DNA from: a virus
Reading direction: 5' to 3' (one strand)
IMG/VR virus record: IMGVR_UViG_3300042288_000193
Coordinates: 1-24,318 of that record
DNA: 24,318 nt
Shown: positions 823-24,318 of the stretch, piece after piece
How the letters are laid out: every line of letters begins with the position of its first letter
Position numbering within the stretch: position 1 is the stretch's first letter
Program-made: the position numbers and the translations under genes
The notes under the pieces: generated by a model
Told to the model about the DNA's origin: nothing
What the model saw: only the letters and a program-made list of their open reading frames with translations
Databases searched by the model: none

Positions 823-3447
823 TTACTCGGCAAGTGAATCAATCTTTGACCTGAGCTTGTCGATGACCGTCTGCTGCTCCTTAATGGCCTGGATCAAGAG
901 GCCAACCAAGTTGCCGTAGCTGACGGTTTTGTTCCCCTCGTCGCCTTGAACGGCCGACGGGATAACTTCCTCGACTTCCTGCGCGATTACGCCGATGCAA
1001 TGTTTGCCATCAGCGATCCAGTCGAATTCAACACCGCGCAGACGCTTAACCTTTTCCACCGCCGACTCAATCGTGGTGATGTTGGTTTTCTTGTTGCGGT
1101 CTGAGGTGCTGTTGAAGTCGGTCGCGGCGGCTGTTCCAGAAACCTCAAGGCGATATGTGCCGCTTGGGGCCAATCCGATGCCAACATTTCCAGCGGCACT
1201 AATCCGCATCCGCTCAGACGGGCCAGACCCGCCGTCAGGGGTCGTGCCAAATATCAGGTCGGCAGGCATGTCGTTGGCGCCAGGCGCCGCACTGACCACT
1301 GCGTTGATGAACGCGCCCTGCAGGTACTGCGTGCCGTCGAATCCCCGGAACACCAGGTTGCCCAGCACGTCGCCGTTCTGCACCACCGCGCCGTTGCGGT
1401 TCTTCTCCAGCACCACGTAGGACGCATTCCCGTCCGCGGTTGTGTTCCGCTGCACCAACTGCGGATAGAAACCGCTGTTGGACACCAGCGCGATGCCGGC
1501 CGACGTCACGTTGTCGGGCGTTGTCGTGCCGATACCCAGCACGCCGGTGGACGACACCACAAACGGCGTAGCGTCAGACGCCACGTCCTCAATGTAGAGC
1601 GCGTTGCCAGAGCCGTTCTGCGTGATCTTCAGCGCGTCGTTTGACGTGTTGGCCGTGATCGTCTGATTGGCCGTGAACACGTTGGCCGAGGCCAGCGCAG
1701 CAAATCCTGCAGTCGGCACATAGGCCGCCACCCAGGCGCTGCCGTTGTAGACGCGCACCTCGTTGGCCACCGTGTTGAAGTACAGGTCGCCCGCGGTCAC
1801 CGGGTTGCCGTTGCCGTCGACCGTCGGGTCAGACGCCAGCGGGCCCAGGTACTGAGCGCGGAAGTTGAACAGCGCCGTTGATGCAGTGCTGGCCGAGCTG
1901 GATGCGCTCGACGCGCTCGACGACGCACTCGACGCGCTCGAGCTGGCCGACGAAGCACTAGACGCAGCAGCTGCGGCAGACGCTGCAGCCGACGTCGTCG
2001 AGCCAAATATCGTGTCGATGTAGTTCTTGGTCGCGCCGTCCTGGGCGTTGACCGGGTCAGCCATGCCGGTGATGCGGTTGCTGCCCATGGCCAGCGCGCC
2101 CGACATCGTGCCGCCGGTCAGCGAGAGCTTGCCAGCCAGCAGGCTGTCGGTGGCCGTCGTGGTGTAGGCGTCGGTGATGCCGTAACCGGCCAGCGTCGTC
2201 GGGTTGGTGCCCGTTGTGACGCGGCCCCACTGGTCGACCGTGACCGAGCGGTAGGTGCCGGCACTCACGCCCGTGGTGGCCAGGTCGATCTCGTCAGCAC
2301 CCACGACGATGCGCGAGCTCGAGGCCGTGTTCACGTTCAGCGTGTTGCCGGTCTTGGTCATGCCGGTGCCGGCCTGAATCTGGCCCGCGCCGGAGAACTG
2401 CTCAAAGGTGACAGCAGTCACGCCTAGCGTGCCACCAGGCGCCACCGCACACACCCAGCCGCTGTTGTCGTTCGTCGACCCGTCCTCAACAAACGTAAAC
2501 GCGCCGACCAGCTCGTCCCAGGTGTTGGCGTCAGCCGCACGCGACCAGGCGCCGGCAGCCGCCACGTAGATGCCGTTCTCGGCGGCGCTGGACTGGTTCT
2601 TCACCAGCACGCGGTCGCCGGCGATCACGGCCACGCCGTCGATCGTCTGCGCGCCCGACAGCGTGATGTTGGCCGTGGTGGCCGCGCGGCAGGATGCCTT
2701 GATGTCCAGGCCCTGCGCCACGCCGTCGACGTAGGCCTTGGTGGCCGCGTCCTGGTCCGCAGTTGGCGTACCCAGGCCGGTGATCTTGTTGGACCCCATG
2801 GCGATCGCGCCAGACATCGTGCCGCCCGACAGCGCCAGGCGAGTGGCCACCTGCATGTCCACGTAGCCCTTGTTGGCCGCGTCGCTGGCGTTGGTCGGGG
2901 TGCTCAGGCCGGTGATGGTGGCCGAGCTGCCCACCGCCATGTCCAGCGCGCCGTTGATCACGACGTCGTTGAACGTCGAGGTGCCGCTGGCCGCCGTGAC
3001 GTTGCCAGTAACTCCACCCGTTGCGGTAAGAGCACCAGTCACGGCAAGGGTAGACGCAAAGGTGGCCGCGCCGGTGACGCCGAACGTGCCGGCCACCAGG
3101 GCGTTGCCCAACGCATTCAGGGTGCGCGTCGCAGGAACGGTCACCGACGTCGTGTTCATCTGCAGCGTGTTCACGCCCAGGATGGAAAACGCGACCGAGC
3201 CGGCGCCCACACGGTAGTAGCCGGTGTTCGTTTCGTTCAGGAACGACAGGCCCGGGCCGGTGACGTTGCCGTCAGCAATTCGGAACGGTGCCAACATGCC
3301 GCCAGCGCCCGTGCGGCTCAACGAGTTTGTCAGCTCGTTGGAGATGTCCTCTAGCGTCGAGTTGGCCCAGGCCGCGTCGATTGTGGTGCCAGGCACCACA
3401 GGGTTGCCTGCGGGCAGGGTGTAGACGCCGGATAGGTTGCGGGGCAT
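823..3447 (-). CDS. Tail fibre protein with C-terminal S74 intramolecular chaperone
   Basis: 874 residues, ATG start with an AGAGGAG ribosome site. Modules in order: an N-terminal anchor (about 1-60); three copies of a GGTMSGA.AMGSN.ITG...P..A.DAA.K.Y.D type repeat around 178-200, 206-242 and 444-480, the first lacking the GGTMSG part; a conserved fibre domain (about 247-352, with IDGVAV.AGDRVLVKNQ and NGIYV); an Ala/Ser-rich segment (485-525) expected to form a coiled coil or flexible trimer stalk; a GDLYFNT..NEVRVYNG.AW domain (533-575); beta-rich repeats including GVLGIGTTTP; and a Peptidase_S74 chaperone from about 781 (SDRNKKTNI, GVIAQEVEEVIP, VSYGNLVGLLIQAIKEQ). In S74 proteins the chaperone drives trimerisation and cleaves itself off before a serine; Ser782 is the candidate. 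It is the last large gene of the structural array and probably forms the main host-recognition fibre. Confidence 0.93.
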   Translation of the reverse strand: MPRNLSGVYTLPAGNPVVPGTTIDAAWANSTLEDISNELTNSLSRTGAGGMLAPFRIADGNVTGPGLSFLNETNTGYYRVGAGSVAFSILGVNTLQMNTTSVTVPATRTLNALGNALVAGTFGVTGAATFASTLAVTGALTATGGVTGNVTAASGTSTFNDVVINGALDMAVGSSATITGLSTPTNASDAANKGYVDMQVATRLALSGGTMSGAIAMGSNKITGLGTPTADQDAATKAYVDGVAQGLDIKASCRAATTANITLSGAQTIDGVAVIAGDRVLVKNQSSAAENGIYVAAAGAWSRAADANTWDELVGAFTFVEDGSTNDNSGWVCAVAPGGTLGVTAVTFEQFSGAGQIQAGTGMTKTGNTLNVNTASSSRIVVGADEIDLATTGVSAGTYRSVTVDQWGRVTTGTNPTTLAGYGITDAYTTTATDSLLAGKLSLTGGTMSGALAMGSNRITGMADPVNAQDGATKNYIDTIFGSTTSAAASAAAAASSASSASSSASSASSSASSASSSASTASTALFNFRAQYLGPLASDPTVDGNGNPVTAGDLYFNTVANEVRVYNGSAWVAAYVPTAGFAALASANVFTANQTITANTSNDALKITQNGSGNALYIEDVASDATPFVVSSTGVLGIGTTTPDNVTSAGIALVSNSGFYPQLVQRNTTADGNASYVVLEKNRNGAVVQNGDVLGNLVFRGFDGTQYLQGAFINAVVSAAPGANDMPADLIFGTTPDGGSGPSERMRISAAGNVGIGLAPSGTYRLEVSGTAAATDFNSTSDRNKKTNITTIESAVEKVKRLRGVEFDWIADGKHCIGVIAQEVEEVIPSAVQGDEGNKTVSYGNLVGLLIQAIKEQQTVIDKLRSKIDSLAE
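1873..1995 (-). repeat. Ala/Ser-coding low-complexity repeat inside the tail fibre gene
   Basis: About 41 codons reading almost only Ala and Ser, in SSAS/SSSA units with a Thr variant at the end. The DNA shows short imperfect tandem repeats of GCTCGACGC and GACGCACTC type. Such tracts are common in phage fibres, form long slender helical or disordered linkers, and can change length by recombination or polymerase slippage. Confidence 0.8.
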
Positions 3448-6474: not shown

Positions 6475-6837
6475 TCACATACCCCCGCCGTAGTCGCCCG
6501 TGTCCATCTCGCCGGTGATGTTGGTCAGGCCCAAGCGCTTTCGGCGCTGCATCTCCTGCATGCGACGCAGCGTCGAGCCCTGGCGCTCGTTCATGCCGGC
6601 CATGGCTGAGTCCACGCCCTTCTGCTGCTGCCCGGCCATGTAGGCCGTGCCCATCTGCGCGATCGCGTTGGCGATGCCGGGCGCGACGTAGTGCTTGCCC
6701 ACCATCTGGCCCTGCATGGGCTCCATGGCGCGGCCACGCAGTGCGTCGACCATCGCCTGCTTGCGGCGCAACTCGTCCTGCTCGGGGCGCATGGCGCCCA
6801 TCTCCAGCAGGTAGTCGAACATCAGGTTGTCGTTCAT
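6475..6837 (-). CDS. Small virion-associated protein, unknown function (120 aa)
   Basis: The ATG at 6837 overlaps the TAA of the preceding gene in a TAATG arrangement, a usual coupling signal. The 120-residue product is Met/Gln/Arg-rich and mostly helical. It has an N-terminal helix (FDYLLEMGAM), a charged middle, a Gly/Ala-rich stretch (VAPGIANAIAQMGTAYMAGQ, about 50-69), a basic helix (STLRRMQEMQRRKRLG) and a Gly-rich tail. I do not recognise a named family. The Gly/Ala patch looks weakly membrane-seeking, as in other small internal virion proteins. Its place inside the internal-protein block suggests a structural or ejection accessory role. Confidence 0.6.
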   Translation of the reverse strand: MNDNLMFDYLLEMGAMRPEQDELRRKQAMVDALRGRAMEPMQGQMVGKHYVAPGIANAIAQMGTAYMAGQQQKGVDSAMAGMNERQGSTLRRMQEMQRRKRLGLTNITGEMDTGDYGGGM

Positions 6838-8297
6838 TACAGGCCTCCGTAGTTCACCATCAGGTAGCCGTTGGCGTGGCGCTTGACCAGGTCAGGGCGC
6901 ACGCGCTCCACCTCTTGCGCGATCACACCGCGTTGCGGCATTCCCATCATCGTGTAGTCGTAAATGCCAACACCGATCGAATGAGTGCCAACCCGCTTGA
7001 GGTTGGACTTTAGGCGACGGTCGGAGAACATGAACGCGGCCGAGCCGAGCTGCGCACCAGCGCCCAGCAAGTTGCCGAATGCGGCGTTCTGCGCGTTGAC
7101 AGCGCCCAGCGCGGCGTCGTAGCCCATCTGCGTGGCGCCCAGGATGTTGGGCGTCTCGGAGCGCTGCGCAGCCGCGAACGACGGCATGTTGGGCATGCTC
7201 ACCTGCTGGCCCGACAGCAGCGCGTTCATCTCGTTCAGCGACATGCCACGACGCTGCATCTGCTCGGCGATTGCCTGCTGGCGCAGACGATTCTGCGCGT
7301 CGGCGAACTGCTGGTTCAGCCCGTACTGCTGACCAATAGCCTGGTTCTGCGCCTGCATGCGCGCCAGATCCAGAGCCTGGGCCTGACCCAGCGCTTGGTT
7401 CTGGAACTGCGCGGAGCCCAGCCCCTGGCTGTAGTCCTGGCCGATGGCCTGGTTGCGGAACTGACCGGCCTGCAGGCCTTGGTTGAACGCCTGGTTGGCG
7501 GCCTGGTTATAGAAGTTGCCGCCGGTGACGTCCTCGTTGAACGCCTGCTGGCGCGCACCCATCTGCATGCCGAACAGCCGCTGGGCCTCGTTGCCGGCTT
7601 GGTCTAGCGCGTTGAATCGCTCGTTGGCCTGGCGCTGCTGCAACTCGGTCAGCGCGCGGTTGTAGGCCTCAGACCCCTGCGTGAAGCCTTGATTGGCCAG
7701 GCGCGTCTCGAGCTGTTGCTGCTGGTAGTTGTGCACCGGCTGCATGCGCTGCATGAGCTGATCAGCCACCCGGTCGCGGTAACCTGAATCCACCTGCGGC
7801 AGCATCGGATTGTCACCCGTGTCCAGGCCGCGCTGCAGCGACTCGGTCTGCACGTTGCCCTGCGGACGGCCAAAGCCGAACGCGGTCGTGATGCCCGGCG
7901 TGTAGTCGGTCGTGCGCGTCTGCAGCGGCTGCGCCATGTTGGCCTGGGCCATCTGCGGCAGCGACTGGTAGTCGAACGGGCGCGAGTATTCGCCGGCCAC
8001 GCGGTCCATGAAGCTGCCGGCTAACTGCGAGCGCTCGTTCTGCAGGCCGATTTGCGCGTTCAGCGCATCCTGCAGGCCAGGCGCAAGCGTGTTGTTCTGC
8101 GTCCAGGACGTGACCGTTTGACCCGTTGCCGGGTCAGTCGTCGCCGACGTGTTCCAAGACTGCGAACCGAACGGCGTGTTGATCGTCGGCCGGTTGGCAA
8201 AGTTCTGGATGTTGGTCAGCTCCTTAGAAGCTGCCGCCTGCGTGTTCGCCGCGCCGATGTAATCAGGCGGCGGCGGTGCTGATCCTTTTCCGCCCAT
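6837..8297 (-). CDS. Internal virion protein with 18-residue repeats and C-terminal S74 domain (486 aa)
   Basis: The start is set at ATG 8297, which has AAGGAG seven bases upstream; an earlier in-frame start at 8342 lies deeper inside the upstream gene. The N-terminus is Gly/Pro-rich (GGKGSAPPPPDY), followed by NTPFGSQSWNTSA and ALNAQIGLQNERS. From about 225 to 353 the protein is a Gln/Asn/Ala-rich helix built from 18-residue repeats. A conserved phage motif follows: RRGMSLNEMNALLSGQQV (about 349-366). The last 62 residues are a short S74-type domain (FSDRRLKSNLKRVG, RGVIAQEVERVRPDLV, GYLMVNYGGL), with Ser425 as the possible cleavage residue. Proteins of this build are recurrent in podovirus virion cassettes near internal or tail proteins. 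The short S74 form lacks the C-terminal coiled coil seen in the fibre protein. Confidence 0.8.
   Translation of the reverse strand: MGGKGSAPPPPDYIGAANTQAAASKELTNIQNFANRPTINTPFGSQSWNTSATTDPATGQTVTSWTQNNTLAPGLQDALNAQIGLQNERSQLAGSFMDRVAGEYSRPFDYQSLPQMAQANMAQPLQTRTTDYTPGITTAFGFGRPQGNVQTESLQRGLDTGDNPMLPQVDSGYRDRVADQLMQRMQPVHNYQQQQLETRLANQGFTQGSEAYNRALTELQQRQANERFNALDQAGNEAQRLFGMQMGARQQAFNEDVTGGNFYNQAANQAFNQGLQAGQFRNQAIGQDYSQGLGSAQFQNQALGQAQALDLARMQAQNQAIGQQYGLNQQFADAQNRLRQQAIAEQMQRRGMSLNEMNALLSGQQVSMPNMPSFAAAQRSETPNILGATQMGYDAALGAVNAQNAAFGNLLGAGAQLGSAAFMFSDRRLKSNLKRVGTHSIGVGIYDYTMMGMPQRGVIAQEVERVRPDLVKRHANGYLMVNYGGL
7239..7508 (-). repeat. Five 54-bp units coding an 18-residue helical repeat
   Basis: Residues 264-353 of the 486-residue virion protein fall into consecutive blocks of exactly 18 residues. 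Four blocks open with NQA (NQAANQAF, NQAIGQDY, NQALGQAQ, NQAIGQQY) and the fifth opens with NRL. Each ends in a Q/R-rich half such as AQFQ or ADAQ. Eighteen residues make five alpha-helical turns, so one face repeats exactly. Confidence 0.75.
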
Positions 8298-8703
8298 GAG
8301 CGTTCTCCTTGATCCAACGGCACTCGTCGTGCCGCATTTCAAACATCACACAATCGACTGTCTCGGCGATCCTGCGGAAGCCCAGCTTCTCGTTCATGTG
8401 CAGGGCCTCGTCCAAATTCTTCGGGGTCAGGCCGTACACAGCTTCCATGCCGCATTTTATGAAGGGATACTCAAACGCAGCGCGCCAGAGCTTGCGAGAC
8501 AGCGCGTGCTGCCCGTCAAACGCAACGTGCATCCAGCATGAGGACATCGTCCAAGCGTTGTACGCGACCGCGCACGCGATCGTCCCGTCGTCTCGCATGC
8601 ACCCGATCGTGCGCACGTCGGTGCTCCACGGTAGACGCGTGCGCTTGTTGATCCACTCCCAAACGAGCGGATACTGACCGGGTTGATCGGTGACGAGGTT
8701 CAC
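8263..8703 (-). CDS. GNAT-like acetyltransferase in virion gene cluster (146 aa)
   Basis: Starts at GTG 8703, overlapping the upstream stop as GTGA. The 146 residues show a GNAT-like layout: beta strands around 31-60 (RTIGCMRDDG then ACAVAYNAW), a helix following LSRKLWRAAFEYPF, a strand VYGLTPK, and the characteristic C-terminal N..A..MNEKLGFRR segment (about 97-111) where GNAT proteins bind acetyl-CoA and close the fold. The usual R/Q-x-x-G-x-G/A loop is not obvious (FDGQHALSR occupies that place), so activity is uncertain. Similar short GNAT-like proteins are found among podovirus late genes. The substrate is unknown; virion or host protein modification is a guess. The 3' end overlaps the next gene by 35 bases. 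Confidence 0.72.
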   Translation of the reverse strand: MNLVTDQPGQYPLVWEWINKRTRLPWSTDVRTIGCMRDDGTIACAVAYNAWTMSSCWMHVAFDGQHALSRKLWRAAFEYPFIKCGMEAVYGLTPKNLDEALHMNEKLGFRRIAETVDCVMFEMRHDECRWIKENAHGRKRISTAAA

Positions 8704-17400: not shown

Positions 17401-19332
17401 TCACTGCATTGCGCCGCCCACGGGCGGCATCTGCGGGCCCGCCGGCGGCAGGTTGGGCTGCGGCTGCAGCATCCCCATCTGCAGCGCCTTCATGCGCGCG
17501 TCCATCTCGGTGTCGGTCGCCTCGGCCATGCGCTTGCGGGCGCCGGCCTGCTTCTCGGCCACCTCGGCCTCCTGCAGCGGGTTGGGCTGATTCGGTTGCG
17601 GCAGCCCCTGCTGCTTGAGCGCGCCGATTGCCTGGTCCAGAACGCCCTCGATCTGCTGCGACACGCGGAACTTGGACACGCTCCACTGCAGCAGCGACAG
17701 CAGCACAGGCGCGGCCTGCGGCACCGACTGCGCCATCGGCGCCACCTGGGAGATGAATGCGCCCAGGCCCTGCATGAACTGCACCGCAGCGTCGCGCTCG
17801 GCGGCCCAGTCGAGTGCGGCCATCGAGTCGGCCTCGACGTTCACCCGGTACTGCGCCATGTGCTCGTCCTTGAGCAGCTCGATGGCGGCCATGGCCATCG
17901 GCGCATCGGGCGTGCGCTCGATGTTCGACCGCTTAATGATCGTCTCAGGCTGCCAGTGCTTGCAGATGATCTCGGCCTTGATGCGCAGCGACTGCGAGAT
18001 CCAGTCGGCTATGTAGAACTGCATCAGCTGGATGCGGGTCGATCCGAACTGCGCCTTGATCTGCTGCGCCGTGGCCGTCTCGCTAGCGCGGCTCGAGCCC
18101 CGCATCACGTCGGAGATGCCCAGGACCTCGTAGATCTGCATCACCTTGTCCTGCCGGTACTGGCGCAGGCGCTCGATGCAGTTCACCACCATGTCAATGG
18201 GAGCCCAGTCGACTTGGCCCTTGATGCCGCCCTTCTCCGCAAACAAGGCCCAGTTGTCGACCGGGATCATCTGGTTTTCAGCGCCCTGCTGGAACATGCG
18301 CTGCACGCCGTCGGCCGTCTTGTCGTACACGCCCACGACCTTGGCCGCACGCGTCAGCCAGGTAATGCGGGTATTGATCTCGTCGAGCTCGTTGAACTGG
18401 TCCTGCGCGAAGATGTAGTCGGCGCGCGGCATGAAGTTGGAGCTGGTGACGTTCGCGGCTAGGGGCTTGGGGCACGGGAAGAAACCGTCGAGCTGCAGCG
18501 GGTCGTCCTTCACGTCCAGGATGACGTCGGCACCCTTGGCGTACCAGTAGACCTTCTTGTTCTCCTTGCACCAGATCTCAAACACCTCAGCCTTCGACCA
18601 CGGGTCGTGCTTGGGTGACTGGTCGTTGACGTCGGCCTTACGCACCTGCACGCCCAGGGGCACGATCTTGGCGATCTCCTCACCAAACCGCTCGACCAGC
18701 TGGTCCTTGGTCATCCATACGCGGCGGGCGACCCACCGCACCTCGGGCCAGGTCCGCGCCGGCGAGTAGAAGAAGTCCTCCCAGTAGATGTAGTCAACCG
18801 GGGCGTCCTCGTCGACAATGCGTTCGGCTTCCGTCTCGGGCTGCAGCTCCACTCCGAACTCGTCGAACACGGCCGGGATTACATAGGGCTCGGTCTTGAC
18901 CTCGTAGCGCAGCCAGATCTGGCCCATGCCCACGATCAGCCAGTCCTCGATGCCCTGCCGCACCGCCGCGTCCCACACCGAGACGTTTTCGTCGAAGCCG
19001 CGGTTCAGGATCCGCTGCAGCATCAACCCGGCCACGCGGGCCTGGTCGTCCTCAAAGTCCTGAAACGTGCGCGACACGTCGGCCTTGGGCGGCCGCGCGT
19101 ACAGCATCGACAGCAGGACCTTCATCGTCGACCAGAACAGGTTGACCTTGCTCTCGTCCTTGGCATACGCGTCGCGGCGGTCCAGGTACCGCTGTGTGAT
19201 GCGGTTGGCGTCCGTGTGGAACTTCATCAGCTCCTGCTGCGACGCCTGAATCTCAGTCGACCAACGCTGCGCCAGCCCCGCCGGGGTGCTTTGGAAATCG
19301 CTTGCGCTGGTGATCTTGGCGTTGGTTTCCAT
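17401..19332 (-). CDS. Portal protein (643 aa)
   Basis: ATG 19332 overlaps the terminase stop (TGATG) and has AAGGA seven bases upstream; a GTG three bases earlier is less likely. The length is in the usual podovirus portal range. Typical elements: an N-terminal helical start (AQRWSTEIQASQQELMKF), a long region with WEDFFYSPARTWPEVRWVARR (about 190-210), a hinge, then YRQDKVMQIYEVLGISDVMRG, SETATAQQIKAQFGSTRI and MQFYIADWISQSLRIKAEI, which match the stem and clip helices of portals. The C-terminus (about 560-643) is Gln/Pro/Met-rich. The portal forms the dodecameric DNA gate at one head vertex and docks the terminase encoded just upstream. Confidence 0.9.
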   Translation of the reverse strand: METNAKITSASDFQSTPAGLAQRWSTEIQASQQELMKFHTDANRITQRYLDRRDAYAKDESKVNLFWSTMKVLLSMLYARPPKADVSRTFQDFEDDQARVAGLMLQRILNRGFDENVSVWDAAVRQGIEDWLIVGMGQIWLRYEVKTEPYVIPAVFDEFGVELQPETEAERIVDEDAPVDYIYWEDFFYSPARTWPEVRWVARRVWMTKDQLVERFGEEIAKIVPLGVQVRKADVNDQSPKHDPWSKAEVFEIWCKENKKVYWYAKGADVILDVKDDPLQLDGFFPCPKPLAANVTSSNFMPRADYIFAQDQFNELDEINTRITWLTRAAKVVGVYDKTADGVQRMFQQGAENQMIPVDNWALFAEKGGIKGQVDWAPIDMVVNCIERLRQYRQDKVMQIYEVLGISDVMRGSSRASETATAQQIKAQFGSTRIQLMQFYIADWISQSLRIKAEIICKHWQPETIIKRSNIERTPDAPMAMAAIELLKDEHMAQYRVNVEADSMAALDWAAERDAAVQFMQGLGAFISQVAPMAQSVPQAAPVLLSLLQWSVSKFRVSQQIEGVLDQAIGALKQQGLPQPNQPNPLQEAEVAEKQAGARKRMAEATDTEMDARMKALQMGMLQPQPNLPPAGPQMPPVGGAMQ

Positions 19333-20675
19333 CACCCGATCCTTGTGCTCTGTTGGGGACCACAGTCCCAGATGTCGTCAAGGGCGAACGAATAGTTCAT
19401 GCTCTTGGCCACAGGTGTCGAGATTTTAGGACCGGGGTGCGATTTCGCCATCACCGGGCGCGCAGCAAGCGCGAGATACCGAAACGAGTCCGACGCGTGA
19501 GAGTGTTGGTCGTGCTTGGGCCGGTTGCGGTAGGTCTGGGTCTTCTCGTCCCACTCCCGCATGTAGGCCCGCAGGTGGTCGACGCCGTCGTAAGTGACCT
19601 CCTCGTCGAACCAGCACTTGGGCAGCACCAGGCGCGCGGCCTCGATCCCGTCCTGCAGCGACATCTCAGGCACCAATCGCGGCCGGATGCCGTTGGCCAG
19701 GAACTGCTCAATGATCGATTTGCCCGTCTGCAAAGACTTGGCCCGGGCATCGTGAGGCAAAAAGACCCCCTCCGCGTTGACCCGGTACGGGCGTGACTTT
19801 ACCCAGTCGATGTAGTGCTGGATCGGCTGGTTGTCGGCCTCATAGAAGTCGACGATCCGATACCCGTCACGCGTCTCCTGCCAGCCCCACCAGCTGCAGC
19901 TGTCGGTGTAGCCCAGGTCGGCCACCAGGTTGACCGGAAACGCCGGGTCGACAGGGAACTTCCCAACGCGGCCCTGCTCATACGCGTCGCCGATCTGCTT
20001 GGCGTAGTAGGCGCCCGGCACCGCCGCGTCGAATGAGCACTCGTACTCGACCTCAAACGCCTCGGGCGTCATCTGCGCCTTGGCGTCGCGCAGCTCGTCG
20101 GGGTGGATGATGTTGGTCTTGGACGCGGGCAGCTCTAGCAGCATGTGCGTGGCCGGGTTCAGCCGCGCCTCCTCGCGTAGGTTCCAGAACAGGTTCTTGC
20201 CGCGGGGCGTGCCGGCGAAGATGGCCCACCCGCGGCGGTCTGACAGCGCCGGCCGGATCACCGTGTACCAGGCCGAGGGCCGCATGTCGCCCACCTCGTC
20301 CAGCACCGCCCCGTCAAAGTACATGCCGCGCAGCGCGTCGTAGTTGTCAGCGCCGGCGACGTAGATCGTCGACTCGCCCTTGTGGCCGTTGCTGAGGGTG
20401 ATCTTCAGCTCCGACTCATTTGGCGGCTTAGACCAGAACGGCCGCGTCAGATCCTTGAGGTATCCCCACGCCACCCGCTTGGCCTGGTCGCGCTGCGGCG
20501 CCAGGTAGGCAAACTGCGGCTTAGGCAGCGCCGTCTCGAGCGCTCCGAGCACCAGGTCAGCGCACATGGCCACCGTCTTGCCACAGCGCCGGTGCGCGAC
20601 GACGACCGTCCAGCGCCGGTCGCGGTTGTGCAGCGGCAGGAACACCTGGCGCGGTTGGTATTCCTGCAAATTCAT
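19332..20675 (-). CDS. terL: Terminase large subunit (447 aa)
   Basis: A complete packaging motor and nuclease. Walker A is AHRRCGKT (27-34), Walker B with catalytic Glu is GAVLDE (122-127), and the coupling motif is AGTPRGKN (154-161). The C-terminal nuclease has VADLGYTD (251-258, first acidic residue D253) and HASDSFRY (393-400, D396), with LPHDARAKS (306-314) between. These fit the RNase H-like terminase nuclease. The protein pumps DNA into the prohead and cuts concatemers. It lacks a normal ribosome site; its ATG overlaps the stop of a seven-codon reading frame, suggesting coupled translation from the DUF3310 gene. It leads into the portal gene with a TGATG overlap. Confidence 0.95.
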   Translation of the reverse strand: MNLQEYQPRQVFLPLHNRDRRWTVVVAHRRCGKTVAMCADLVLGALETALPKPQFAYLAPQRDQAKRVAWGYLKDLTRPFWSKPPNESELKITLSNGHKGESTIYVAGADNYDALRGMYFDGAVLDEVGDMRPSAWYTVIRPALSDRRGWAIFAGTPRGKNLFWNLREEARLNPATHMLLELPASKTNIIHPDELRDAKAQMTPEAFEVEYECSFDAAVPGAYYAKQIGDAYEQGRVGKFPVDPAFPVNLVADLGYTDSCSWWGWQETRDGYRIVDFYEADNQPIQHYIDWVKSRPYRVNAEGVFLPHDARAKSLQTGKSIIEQFLANGIRPRLVPEMSLQDGIEAARLVLPKCWFDEEVTYDGVDHLRAYMREWDEKTQTYRNRPKHDQHSHASDSFRYLALAARPVMAKSHPGPKISTPVAKSMNYSFALDDIWDCGPQQSTRIG

Positions 20676-20695
20676 GCGGCAGGGTTGATGTTCAT
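20672..20695 (-). other. Seven-codon micro-ORF linking DUF3310 and terL
   Basis: ATG at 20695 overlaps the DUF3310 stop (ATGA), and its own stop (TGA, 20674-20672) overlaps the terminase ATG (ATGA). It encodes MNINPAA. Such a chain of overlapping stop and start codons would let ribosomes pass from one gene to the next where no Shine-Dalgarno sequence is present. It may simply be chance. Confidence 0.4.
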
Positions 20696-20913
20696 GTGGT
20701 TGTCAAACGCTGGATCTCGCGGTCGATGTACCAGCGCGCCTTGCGCAGGTCCTCGATCGGGCTGTCGGATTTCAGCCCCGCGCGCCAGACGTACTTGATC
20801 GCGTTGCCCAGGTTGAAGTTGTAGTGCTCCGTGACCTGGATGCACTCGACGCCGCTTGGGTGCTGCGTGTAGTGGGCCGGGCGGTTGACGGGGTCGTGTT
20901 GAGGTTGGCTCAT
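20692..20913 (-). CDS. DUF3310 family protein (73 aa)
   Basis: The start is placed at ATG 20913 because the conserved domain begins at DPVNRPAHYT (7-16). The frame stays open upstream to a GTG at 21090, but that extension is only Pro/Gly/Arg-rich translation of the GC-rich hairpin region. The rest is typical of DUF3310: GVECIQVTEHYNFNLGNAIK then YVWRAGLK, and EDLRKARWYIDREI. These small proteins are widespread in phages and are often labelled nucleotide kinase by likeness to T7 gp1.7, a link I give from memory. No ATP-binding P-loop is visible. No Shine-Dalgarno precedes the start; the upstream sequence is C-rich. Confidence 0.85.
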   Translation of the reverse strand: MSQPQHDPVNRPAHYTQHPSGVECIQVTEHYNFNLGNAIKYVWRAGLKSDSPIEDLRKARWYIDREIQRLTTT

Positions 20914-20933
20914 CGGGTTGGTGGGGGGTAGGG

Positions 20934-20998
20934 AAAAATGGGCGGGGGCCCCAGCCTCGGCACCCCCTCCCCCACCGGCTCGACGGGGGGGGTGGGGG
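20934..20998 (-). terminator. GC-rich hairpins with a short T tract, possible terminator
   Basis: Two structures occur between the small terminase and DUF3310 genes. The first is a 15-bp stem with two mismatches (CCCCCTCCCCCACCG at 20963-20977 against CGGGGGGGGTGGGGG at 20984-20998, loop of six). The second is a smaller stem around GGGGCCCC (20941-20956), followed on the minus strand by CA and five T residues (20938-20934). The second has the form of a weak intrinsic terminator. The G runs could also form a quadruplex on the plus strand. Confidence 0.4.
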
Positions 20999-21091
20999 TC
21001 AGGAATCGCCCGCGGCCGGCAGTGCCCCGCGCAGGGGCCCAGCAGGGCGCAGGAGGCCCGATCGCGCAGCAGGTCAGGCCAGGGCCCCACC

Positions 21092-21619
21092 TCAGCCCTC
21101 CGAGCGCCCTGGCGGGCCGCTATTCGCGTCGCCCCCTACTGCCGCCGGCGTGGCCGGCACCCCCTCGGCGCCTGTTGCCGGATCAATGATCCGGTATGTG
21201 CCGTCGTTTTCCCGTTGCAGATCAAGAACTTGCGCGGGCTGCTGCTCGATTTGTGCCGCAGGCGTGCCCACTTGCCGCTGCGACAACCAGCCCAGCTCAA
21301 GCCGGATGCCGCCGTCCACGTTCGTGTTGACCTGCAGGGGCAGCGCCTTGTTGACCATGGCCGCGAAGATCTGCCGGTCGCCCAGCGAGCCCTGCGCGCG
21401 CTCCACCAGCCAGGCCGCCAGGCCCTTGGTGCCCTTGCTGTCGGTCACCTGGCTGGCTGCCATCTCGACGGCCTCGCGGATGGTGCGCGTGACCTTGTTG
21501 GGCACGCCCTTGACGCGGCCCGCCGGCAGCTCCCGCCCGTCCGGCGTCCGCATCACCGGCCTCTTGACCGGCTCCACTTTCGAGCGCGCCTCCTCAGCCT
21601 GATGTTGCGTTTCCATCAT
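21092..21619 (-). CDS. terS: Putative terminase small subunit (175 aa)
   Basis: The 175-residue product has a polar N-terminus, then GRVKGVPNKVTRTIREAVEMAA (34-55, two adjoining parts), a motif found near the DNA-binding end of many phage small-terminase-like proteins. It continues with a helix (KGLAAWLVERAQG), GDRQIFAAMVNKALPLQV (80-97) and a low-complexity C-terminus (Pro/Ala/Gly). The FAAMVNKALPLQV part resembles the segment just after the DNA-binding helices in related proteins. Small terminase recognises the packaging site and loads the motor. Its position two genes before terL supports this. Two tandem ATG codons compete (21619 and 21616), and the ribosome site is weak. Confidence 0.6.
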   Translation of the reverse strand: MMETQHQAEEARSKVEPVKRPVMRTPDGRELPAGRVKGVPNKVTRTIREAVEMAASQVTDSKGTKGLAAWLVERAQGSLGDRQIFAAMVNKALPLQVNTNVDGGIRLELGWLSQRQVGTPAAQIEQQPAQVLDLQRENDGTYRIIDPATGAEGVPATPAAVGGDANSGPPGRSEG

Positions 21620-21634
21620 GGCCAGATTCTCGCA

Positions 21635-21922
21635 TCAGTCAGCCCAAGAGCAGCTTGCCGGCAGGATCCTGCGGAGCTCCTCGACGGCCCGCAGGGCCTT
21701 CCGCATCTTGACCCCGTCGATGCCATCTAGCGCGACTGCATCAATCGCGGCCGTCATCAGCCACAAAGCCTTCGCGGTTGTCGGCAGCTCGTTAAACGCC
21801 GCATCACCAGCGCATGCGGTGCACGTGAACTTGGCGGCCATCCGCGGCGTCATGGGGTGCTTGAGCACCGCCACCTCACCGCTGTCCGGATTCCAAGCCA
21901 GCACTGCTTCACTCATCTTCAT
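21635..21922 (-). CDS. Small protein of unknown function (95 aa)
   Basis: ATG 21922 is chosen because GGAG lies six bases upstream; a GTG at 21949 would add nine residues. The 95-residue product begins with a beta-like segment (EAVLAWNPDSGEVAVLKHP), has a pair of cysteines (FTCTACAGDAAF, about 32-43) that could bind metal only with other ligands, and ends in helices (TAKALWLMTAAIDAVAL and KMRKALRAVEELRRIL). I recognise no family. It lies between the repeat cluster and the small terminase, so it is the first gene after the candidate origin and may be controlled by it. Confidence 0.6.
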   Translation of the reverse strand: MKMSEAVLAWNPDSGEVAVLKHPMTPRMAAKFTCTACAGDAAFNELPTTAKALWLMTAAIDAVALDGIDGVKMRKALRAVEELRRILPASCSWAD

Positions 21923-21953
21923 CTCAATCTCCAACAAGTTAGTCGCCACTGAC

Positions 21954-22115
21954 CGGGACAGGACATTTACCGGGACATTCGGGACACCCTATAGGGTGTG
22001 TCCCGTTCTGTCCCGCCAAATTGATGTCCCGACGTCCCGCTATGTCACGCCATGTCCCGGTCATGTCCCGCCTGATGTCCCGCTCGTGTCTCGTCCTCCA
22101 AGCACGATGTCACGA
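21954..22115. repeat. Cluster of TGTCCCG / CGGGACA repeats, candidate replication origin or operator array
   Basis: Six exact TGTCCCG copies (21999, 22009, 22025, 22053, 22064, 22076) and near-copies (22033, 22043, 22087, 22109) face three exact CGGGACA copies (21954, 21971, 21980). Many neighbours are 10-12 bases apart, close to one helical turn. The two orientations meet at a palindrome. The cluster overlaps the last codons of the primase-helicase gene, and one further TGTCCCG lies at 24100-24106 near that gene's start. This is how iteron origins or cooperative operators look. Confidence 0.65.
21984..21999. promoter_or_regulatory. 16-bp perfect palindrome in the repeat cluster
   Basis: ACACCCTATAGGGTGT is its own reverse complement. 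Flanking GGG on the left and GTCCC on the right extend the symmetry with a two-base offset. It sits where the two opposed repeat series meet, so it is a likely binding site for a dimeric protein such as the nearby helix-turn-helix regulator. Confidence 0.6.
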
Positions 22116-24114
22116 TGCCGGACGCATTCAGGACCACCATTCCCTTGTCCCGCAGGCTGGCGTAGGCCCGCAGGTAGGCCTTCCTGGCCGTGTCCTGGTT
22201 GTACTGCTTGCCACCAGCCACGGCCTCAGCGCCCAGCCGGTTGTAGAAGGCAAACCGCAGGTCACGGTCAAGGATCTGCCCGCCGGCTTGGGTCAGCAGG
22301 TGCATGACCAACTGCTCATGCCCGGCCAGCTTGGCCATGCCGTTGGCCATGATCTGGGCACCCATGTCGTGGTGCTCGCTGACCAGTGACGACAGCTCCT
22401 CGCCGTCCTCGTCGTGGCCCAGCACGACGCGGTTGAGCCGGAACGTCAGGTTGGCCAGGCGGTCGCCGTCCTTCTGCTTGATCACGTCCAGGCGCGCCAT
22501 CTGGGCCGTGCCCTCGGGCTTGTAGACGCCGACCAAGAAGTCGACGTTGGCGGTGATGGCGCTCGAGCCCCGCGGGCGCTCGCTGGCTGCGTGCCCTGAG
22601 TGGTGGATCACGACGACGGTGCAGTCGAACCTTGCCCGGATCTTGGCGTTGATCAGGCGCAGGTAGGCACTGATGTCGGTGGCGCTGTTCTCGTCGCCCT
22701 CAAAGGTCTGGCTGAGGGTGTCGATGTAGACCAGGCGCGCCGGCGTGGGCAGCTGCTCGAGCGCTGATGCCAAGGCGTCAACGTGCTGGTCAATGCTCAA
22801 CACCATCGGCGTGATGCAGACGTGGAAATCAGGCGTCAGCGGCTTGCCGTGGTGCTGATGCCAGGCCTGCACGCGGCGGTAGATACCGGCGCCACCCTCA
22901 GCGGCCAGGTAGACCACCCGGCCCTGCTTGGTGCGCTTGCCCATCCACTGCATGCCGTGGGCCACGTGCAGCCCGTGGTCCAGCGCCACGAAGGACTTGT
23001 AGGTGCCCGAGGCGCCGAAGAACATGCCCAGGCTGTTGTCCGGGATCATGTGCTTGACCTGCCACTTGACCTGGCCCGCCTTGGCCTGCAGCTGGTCCAG
23101 CGTCATCAGCAGGGCGCTGGTGTCGTCTTGGCCATCCTCGCGCTTGGGCAGGCCCAAGCTGACGCTGATGTTGACCCGGCGCTCCTCCGGCGCGAACTTC
23201 TCGGCACTGCGCACCGCCCGCTCGATCTCGTCGTACCGCGACTGCCAGCGCCGGATCTCCTCCTCGGGCCCCGTGGGCTTGACCTGGTGCATTAGGTCGC
23301 GCAGGAATTCGACCGCGGCGCCTGGGAACATGCCGTTGGACACGAGCGAAGCGGCCAGGCGCGTGATCGACTCGTGATAGACCCGCTCGCCCACTGGCGC
23401 AGTCAGCCCCGCGATCATCTCGCCGGCGTGCACGCCCTGCCCTGGCGTTGATGCAGATTTCGTTGTCTGAGCATCAGACGCCGCGCGCAGGTTGTCCAAG
23501 TCGATCCCGATCGCGTGGCATGCATCCTCGAGGGACCAGCGCACGCTCGGGCGCCAGGTGTCCAGCTGCACCGCCCACTCGCCGGCAGCCCGCGGCTTGG
23601 TGTTCTGCCCGACTGGCAGCCGGACATAACGCACCGCGTTATTACCGCTGCGGTCGGCCTTGATAAACCCCCGCGTGGCCAATGCCTGCATAAGTAGGTC
23701 TACCAACTGCCTATTCCGGGCATCGGGATCATCTAGGTCTATCAGGATGCCGACCTGGAACTTGCCCGGACTGGTCTGGATCGCGTAGCTGTACCCCTGC
23801 AGATCCTGCAGCTGCACGTCGTCCAGCACCAGCACCGCAAGCCGAACGAATGAATCCTTGCGTCTGACGATCTCGCCATATTCAGTGGCCTTGAGAACGG
23901 CAGTGCAGAAATACGTGTTGTCTTGCCCGCTGCGATCAATGAGAGCCGCCTGCTGCGGCGTCCCTTTGTAGAGTCGCCCGGCCCATACGGCCGGCGGTGC
24001 GTTGCTGGGGTCTGCGCGAAATGTGCACACCCAGCCGTGCGTGCCCTGCGCGAACTCGCCGTAGATCTCGGCCAGGAAGTCGCTGTTGGTCATGGTTGGT
24101 GTCCCGACAACCAT
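22045..24114 (-). CDS. Primase-helicase: RepB-type primase domain fused to RepA/DnaB-like ATPase (689 aa)
   Basis: ATG 24114 has GAGG seven bases upstream and starts two bases after the regulator's stop. The N-terminal ~210 residues resemble the RepB-type (archaeo-eukaryotic primase) domain of phages and plasmids: NTYFCTAVLKA (66-76), LAVLVLDDVQL (92-102, acidic pair D98-D99), IQTSPGKFQVGILIDL (112-127) and NNAVRYVRLPVGQNTKP (158-174). The ATPase domain has Walker A GASGTYKS (367-374), VVYLAAEGGAGIYRR (400-414), Walker B LVYIDT (461-466) and VVIHHSGH (501-508), as in RepA/RecA-like hexameric helicases. The C-terminus (595-672) looks like a winged helix. It likely unwinds and primes at an origin. 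The last ~15 codons (GHQAGHDRDM) are shaped by the TGTCCCG repeats. Confidence 0.87.
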   Translation of the reverse strand: MVVGTPTMTNSDFLAEIYGEFAQGTHGWVCTFRADPSNAPPAVWAGRLYKGTPQQAALIDRSGQDNTYFCTAVLKATEYGEIVRRKDSFVRLAVLVLDDVQLQDLQGYSYAIQTSPGKFQVGILIDLDDPDARNRQLVDLLMQALATRGFIKADRSGNNAVRYVRLPVGQNTKPRAAGEWAVQLDTWRPSVRWSLEDACHAIGIDLDNLRAASDAQTTKSASTPGQGVHAGEMIAGLTAPVGERVYHESITRLAASLVSNGMFPGAAVEFLRDLMHQVKPTGPEEEIRRWQSRYDEIERAVRSAEKFAPEERRVNISVSLGLPKREDGQDDTSALLMTLDQLQAKAGQVKWQVKHMIPDNSLGMFFGASGTYKSFVALDHGLHVAHGMQWMGKRTKQGRVVYLAAEGGAGIYRRVQAWHQHHGKPLTPDFHVCITPMVLSIDQHVDALASALEQLPTPARLVYIDTLSQTFEGDENSATDISAYLRLINAKIRARFDCTVVVIHHSGHAASERPRGSSAITANVDFLVGVYKPEGTAQMARLDVIKQKDGDRLANLTFRLNRVVLGHDEDGEELSSLVSEHHDMGAQIMANGMAKLAGHEQLVMHLLTQAGGQILDRDLRFAFYNRLGAEAVAGGKQYNQDTARKAYLRAYASLRDKGMVVLNASGIVTSCLEDETRAGHQAGHDRDMA

Positions 24115-24116
24115 GG

Positions 24117-24318
24117 CTACACCTCAACGGCCACCAGCTCCTCGATCTTGATGCGCACTTTCTTGTCGCGCGCAATCTTCATCAGCTCCGGCCAGTGCCG
24201 CTGCGGGATCTGGCCCCCAGTGCCCTCGGGCCGCGGCTGGCACCAGCGGCTGAGGGTGCTCTTGTCCAGGTTCAAGCGCTCGGCGACCTCGGTCTTGCCG
24301 CCCAAGCGCTGGATGACC
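24117..24318 (-). CDS. Helix-turn-helix DNA-binding regulator, partial (N-terminus beyond right edge)
   Basis: The frame is open to the right edge, so the true start lies outside. A TTG at 24305 is unlikely to be the start because the preceding codons read VIQRL and complete the usual VIQRLGGKTEVAERLNLDKS helix-turn-helix opening. The second helix STLSRWCQP is the recognition helix. It is followed by GQIPQRHWPELMKIARDKKV (about 36-55), which matches the C-terminal part of small Cro/YdaS-like phage repressor relatives. The visible part is 66 residues. It probably controls the early region and may bind the palindrome or repeats at 21954-22115. It is transcribed with the primase-helicase; only two bases separate them. 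Confidence 0.8.
   Translation of the reverse strand, partial: VIQRLGGKTEVAERLNLDKSTLSRWCQPRPEGTGGQIPQRHWPELMKIARDKKVRIKIEELVAVEV

Follow-up and report, generated by a model that had tools for sequence, protein, structure and literature searches.

What function does a dense cluster of short, opposed DNA repeats serve at the 3' end of a phage primase-helicase gene, and which protein reads it? We addressed these questions in a 24,318-base virus record (the whole stretch analysed, hereafter the window), whose genes are read on the minus strand. A sequence-only reading of the window had proposed an origin or an operator array, bound either by the C-terminus of the primase-helicase or by the neighbouring helix-turn-helix (HTH) protein. 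Comparative evidence strongly supports an origin bound by the helicase, and we put the probability that the array is the phage replication origin, with iterons bound by the helicase's own C-terminus, at about 0.82.

Structure of the repeat array

The primase-helicase gene (22045-24093) has the cluster at its 3' end. Recounting returned nine exact 7-mers within 129 bases (21954-22082), three as CGGGACA and six as TGTCCCG, just as first reported. Copies with one mismatch are also present, at 21959, 22033, 22043, 22087 and 22108, which makes five instead of the four given earlier. Across the window there are 13 exact copies of the 7-mer against 4.57 expected, and the copies away from the cluster lie at 562, 13469, 22146 and 24100; the first and last of these had been listed correctly, and the other two had been overlooked. 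In 60 dinucleotide-shuffled windows the densest cluster of any 7-mer per 130 bp held three copies (49 shuffles) or four (11 shuffles), compared with the nine observed, so the array is not a product of chance. As delimited here, this candidate replication origin extends over 21954-22093 with no strand assigned and consists of two opposed blocks, in which the nine exact copies are joined by those with one mismatch at 21959, 22033, 22043 and 22087, the last copies overlapping the final codons of the primase-helicase gene; its position is kept in relatives. Among the best literature matches, no description of CGGGACA/TGTCCCG as a phage origin repeat was found.

The opposed blocks meet at the 16-bp palindrome ACACCCTATAGGGTGT, which was confirmed at 21984-21999. 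Around it, two iterons inverted 12 bp apart form a core (21980-22005, no strand assigned), which was delimited by constant spacing in relatives, covariation of the arms and enrichment of a CC-TA-GG hairpin. The inverted central pair is common to the array-bearing close relatives, 18 bp apart (19 in L028), and is the constant feature among the array spacings, the copies next to it standing at near-constant distances across relatives. The base pair just inside the core pair is complementary in all nine distinct sequences, with three pair types, although this is a sample of only nine, and of sequences related to one another. Of 30 array regions (8 kb), 10 contain a perfect hairpin with the CC-TA-GG core, which is found only twice in 214 kb outside them. 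The description of the repeats as helically phased finds weak support: the pooled spacings of relatives are most often 8-13 bp, and the neighbouring periods of 11-13 bp fit them at least as well as one of 10.5 bp. No pronounced AT-rich unwinding stretch lies beside the array.

Domains of the primase-helicase

The primase-helicase has 682 amino acids (22045-24093, minus strand) and starts at MTNSDFLA, from which the homologues align, so that the ATG at 24114 is the less likely start. Its Pfam scan gave a single domain, AAA_25 (3.3e-36; residues 331-575, 22369-23103, minus strand), with no primase domain at E of 0.001 or below and no Toprim domain. A single-sequence search of the PDB with this protein found nothing, and a profile built from its relatives reached RSF1010 RepA among solved structures (1g8y, 3e-5). 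The AlphaFold model has a mean pLDDT of 76. In this model, residues 1-200 (23494-24093, minus strand) take up an archaeo-eukaryotic primase (AEP) fold like that of RSF1010 RepB' (3h20, Foldseek E 2e-8; 3h25, Z 12.9, rmsd 3.1 over 171), and residues 361-588 match the RecA-fold hexameric helicase RSF1010 RepA (1olo, Z 12.4, rmsd 3.8 over 180). Residues 577-665 (22099-22365, minus strand) are predicted to form a C-terminal winged helix (pLDDT about 90), which was also obtained when that part was folded alone; residues 633-649 are its probable recognition helix, and we propose this domain as the iteron reader. Its structural neighbours include the winged helices of E2F-DP, Rpa2, ORC and cullin, so the predicted fold is clear, but the matches name no function. 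No RepC-type initiator was noticed near the helicase in this incomplete genome.

Elsewhere in the window, two different structural-protein ORFs (823-3447 and 6837-8342, minus strand) end in a DRxxK(S/T)N segment, which, read by eye, we take to resemble the S74 intramolecular chaperone of tail-fibre proteins. The listed start of the DUF3310 protein (20692-21090, minus strand) adds about 58 R/P/G-rich residues before the domain, and its real start is probably internal.

Arrays in close relatives

Helicase relatives of at least about 54% identity carried 7-12 words right after the stop codon in all cases examined (shuffle p = 0.005, the floor of the test), and none of the control windows within the same locus reached the array score. 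This is the comparison named earlier as a possible refutation: relatives at or above this identity retain the repeats along with the protein, and where the C-terminus is different the repeats are different or are absent from that place. In L042/L023 the array lies 760 bp further on, behind small genes, and in L032 and L035 CCGGACA replaces CGGGACA in most copies of both blocks. At the tested place, L040 and L119 had weak arrays only and L015, L041, L115, L118 and L120 had none, while the CTCGCA arrays of L024 and L020 failed the strict exact-6-mer test at 150 bp. L045-L068, a more distant group whose winged helix is shorter, had no array at the helicase stop; three of its members have similar arrays 2.6-3.4 kb downstream. 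These are GGACA/CGACA-type arrays with a central palindrome, at +2606 to +2735 (L057), +2665 to +2813 (L058) and +3340 to +3476 (L062) from the helicase stop. L060 has, 2068-2218 after the helicase stop, one-direction tandem repeats of the CGCGACC/CCCGACC type, unlike the inverted iteron arrays.

A GC-skew switch at the array, suggested as a check on the origin, was looked for in three relatives with near-whole records (G011, G012, G013), and no inflection was present there. In G013, the record behind L023/L042, the helicase gene spans the record ends and about 135 bases are repeated at both ends; the 36.4-kb record is therefore probably a complete circular map.

Exchange of the helicase module together with the array

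A set of natural hybrids (L008, L010, L012-L014, L018, L024 and L025) share 82-94% nucleotide identity with the window over both flanks. One flank covers the HTH gene and the primase part, the other the terminase region; between them, from about 21632 to 23180, there is zero detectable similarity. This exchange cassette, with no strand assigned, holds the helicase domain, the winged helix, the array and a small ORF, and is swapped as a block in the hybrids. The exchange of about 1.55 kb between the window and L008, L010, L024, L014 and L025 is a modular exchange inside a gene. Within the cassette, the hybrids carry another helicase module and another array, and the CGGGACA array is missing. 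CGTGCA arrays occur at seven loci that share the C-terminus ...FPRIERRDFFSM..., and CTCGCA arrays at ten loci with another shared C-terminus, ...FPAGFDRGELFSM.... A gene inserted between the helicase stop and the array was observed in L007, L008, L009, L013, L021 and L022, shifting the array by about 787 bp; read by eye, it resembles genes for enzymes of the phosphoadenosine (PAPS) reductase family. In the hybrids with this insert, the array beyond it keeps the word that matches the C-terminus. The 7-mer copy at 24100 is kept in L010 and gone from L008 and L024, and since hybrids that have lost the array either keep or lose it, this copy looks incidental.

In these sequence comparisons, the iteron word changes together with the helicase C-terminus. 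The word and the C-terminus are physically adjacent, so that part of this pattern is explained by their being inherited together, and such linkage of neighbours is the main caveat on their joint change. A residue code leading from the recognition helix to the iteron word was sought by eye in the alignments and was not established.

Wider distribution

Arrays at the helicase 3' end were also found in prophage relatives (L071-L079, 31-36% identity) and in cultured phages of about 27-34% identity, namely Idiomarinaceae 1N2-2, Salicola CGphi29, Alteromonas PB15, Rhizobium RHph_N65 and Vibrio 1.076.O. The words in these prophages and cultured phages are CGGACA, CGGTACA, GTCCGA, GGTACA, GGTTCA, GGGACA, TGGGAC and CTCCGC, and in L071 and L077-L079 the array lies within the helicase gene, 40-157 bp before the stop. 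The primase domains of the wider relatives are Toprim (L112, L114, L116), Prim-Pol (L113, L117) or DnaB-N (L121). Because the primase domain differs among array-bearing relatives, what they have in common is the AAA_25 helicase and the tail at its C-terminus.

We also searched in reverse, with the DNA core alone and no protein, through 2.9 million viral contigs, and found 31 contigs with the core. The locus encodes a helicase relative in 22 of the 31, with matches down to 28-34% identity, and in a 23rd (L128) an AAA_25 protein is present in the record about 1 kb from the array. Three of the 31 have the core in or beside other replication initiators, which are phrog_2447 initiation proteins in L134 and L138 and a VapE-type primase-helicase in L145; the remaining five are L133, in which the copies overlap a head maturation protease gene, L131, L146, L148 and L124. 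The CGGGACA arrays by other initiators were located at 517-1437 in L138, 7281-8741 in L134 and near 3275 in L145, so this word is not confined to RepA-type helicases.

Alternative explanations

An origin with a different reader, which would be the upstream HTH protein, the small ORF at 21635-21949 or a host factor, is unlikely. In its favour, the helicase gene is preceded by the HTH gene (24117-24318, minus strand, cut by the window end), and the small ORF is part of the block that was exchanged. However, hybrids with three different words have almost the same HTH protein, and as both it and the terminase stay while the words differ, both are disfavoured as readers; the HTH protein had been the alternative named earlier. 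The small ORF was found in the closest relatives only (L003/L026, L019) and not in the other array-bearing loci searched, and one host factor would not account for many words.

There is a slimmer chance that the array is an operator, bound by the helicase or a regulator and controlling the downstream genes as a late switch. In the window it stands between replication and packaging genes, and iteron arrays often autoregulate too, but the downstream genes differ between relatives, the array of L071 and L077-L079 sits inside the helicase gene, and simple scans found no sigma-70 promoter or intrinsic terminator pattern at the array. That the small terminase subunit binds the array as a packaging (pac/cos) site is very improbable. 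In the window the array is followed by probable terS (21092-21619) and by terL (19332-20675), but the hybrids retain 85-92% nucleotide identity over the terS/terL region and have other arrays, and in many relatives the array is not close to terminase genes and stays with the helicase. The reading of the palindrome as an RNA-level element, either a transcript end or a regulator, would suit the covarying arms, but is hardly credible, as Rfam gave zero matches in the window, the terminator scans found none, and the opposed 7-mers around the palindrome would be left unaccounted for.

Discussion

The primase-helicase had at first been called P4-like. P4 alpha is a primase-helicase with a C-terminal origin-binding domain, and its helicase is of the AAA+ type. 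Its primase is a Toprim primase (PMC4234260). Unlike P4 alpha, the window protein has neither a Toprim primase nor an AAA+ helicase, and its predicted folds are instead those of the RSF1010 RepB' primase and RepA helicase. The resemblance to RSF1010 (IncQ) extends to both predicted folds and to iterons at the origin, which in the window is a proposed one. The RSF1010 origin also has hairpin elements. In RSF1010, however, there are three separate polypeptides, of which RepC reads the iterons (PMC4234260), whereas in the window primase and helicase form one chain and the winged helix is the candidate reader.

The layout is like that of SaPI and SCCmec, where the gene of a helicase with a fused or separate primase is immediately followed by short iterons, as described for the initiator helicases SaPI Rep and SCCmec Cch2 (PMC7581432). 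Their C-terminal domain recognises the iterons, and the predicted winged helix of the window helicase is a candidate for the same role. Unlike these systems (DUF927, D5-type/Primase_Cterm, MCM-like), the window has a RecA-fold RepA/AAA_25 motor, a RepB'-like primase, and iterons opposed around a conserved palindrome. In the replication proteins of pRN1 (ORF904) and phage BIP-1, too, a single chain carries a primase, a helicase and a C-terminal winged helix, and their origin, including a stem-loop, lies just downstream of the replication-protein gene (PMC4234260); there, however, the helicase belongs to SF3 and a large stem-loop stands without iterons, whereas the window has a RecA-fold helicase and iterons. 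AEP-RepA fusions such as the InversePrim and All3500 families also combine an AEP primase with a RepA-type helicase, and the parts of that source compared here do not describe cognate iteron origins for them (PMC5862659). Judged from sequence and predicted folds, the window system is an RSF1010-type primase-helicase in a SaPI-like layout.

If the array is an origin read by its helicase, the winged helices of several helicase subunits would bind the two opposed iteron blocks, and helicase rings would assemble to the left and right of the central palindrome, where they would open the DNA. SaPI Rep appears to bind as two hexamers (PMC7581432), and by analogy the two blocks suggest a pair of helicase assemblies that face one another with the palindrome between them. 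The fused primase would then start synthesis, and with winged-helix binding, self-assembly of the helicase and a fused primase, no separate initiator or helicase loader would be needed. Most speculatively, and by analogy with RSF1010, the palindrome might form a hairpin on each strand, as an ssi-like priming site for the RepB'-like domain. Further, we tentatively put forward, at somewhat below even odds, a widespread class of phage origins at which a RecA-fold RepA-type helicase with its own origin-recognition domain self-loads at two opposed iteron blocks; the conserved palindrome would act as a two-stranded hairpin at which the fused primase, be it RepB'-like, Prim-Pol or Toprim, starts priming, and the helicase C-terminus and origin would be swapped as one cassette, giving rise to many iteron words.

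That an initiator helicase gene is followed by its iterons (SaPI, SCCmec), or with a stem-loop (pRN1, BIP-1), is already known (PMC7581432, PMC4234260). As far as the compared literature shows, what appears new is that a RecA-fold RepA-type helicase serves as the initiator, that the pattern is so broad and that swaps occur naturally. For most environmental phages the replication origin is not known, and looking for an array of short words where an AAA_25 helicase gene ends (3') offers a rule for finding it; the rule held in relatives with identity as low as about 30% and with several types of primase. Since the natural hybrids keep the scaffold and swap C-terminus and word together, protein-DNA specificity and self-loading of a RecA-fold helicase become directly testable, and the same layout with differently spelled words in many related phages provides a natural test bed for the matching of helicases to origins.
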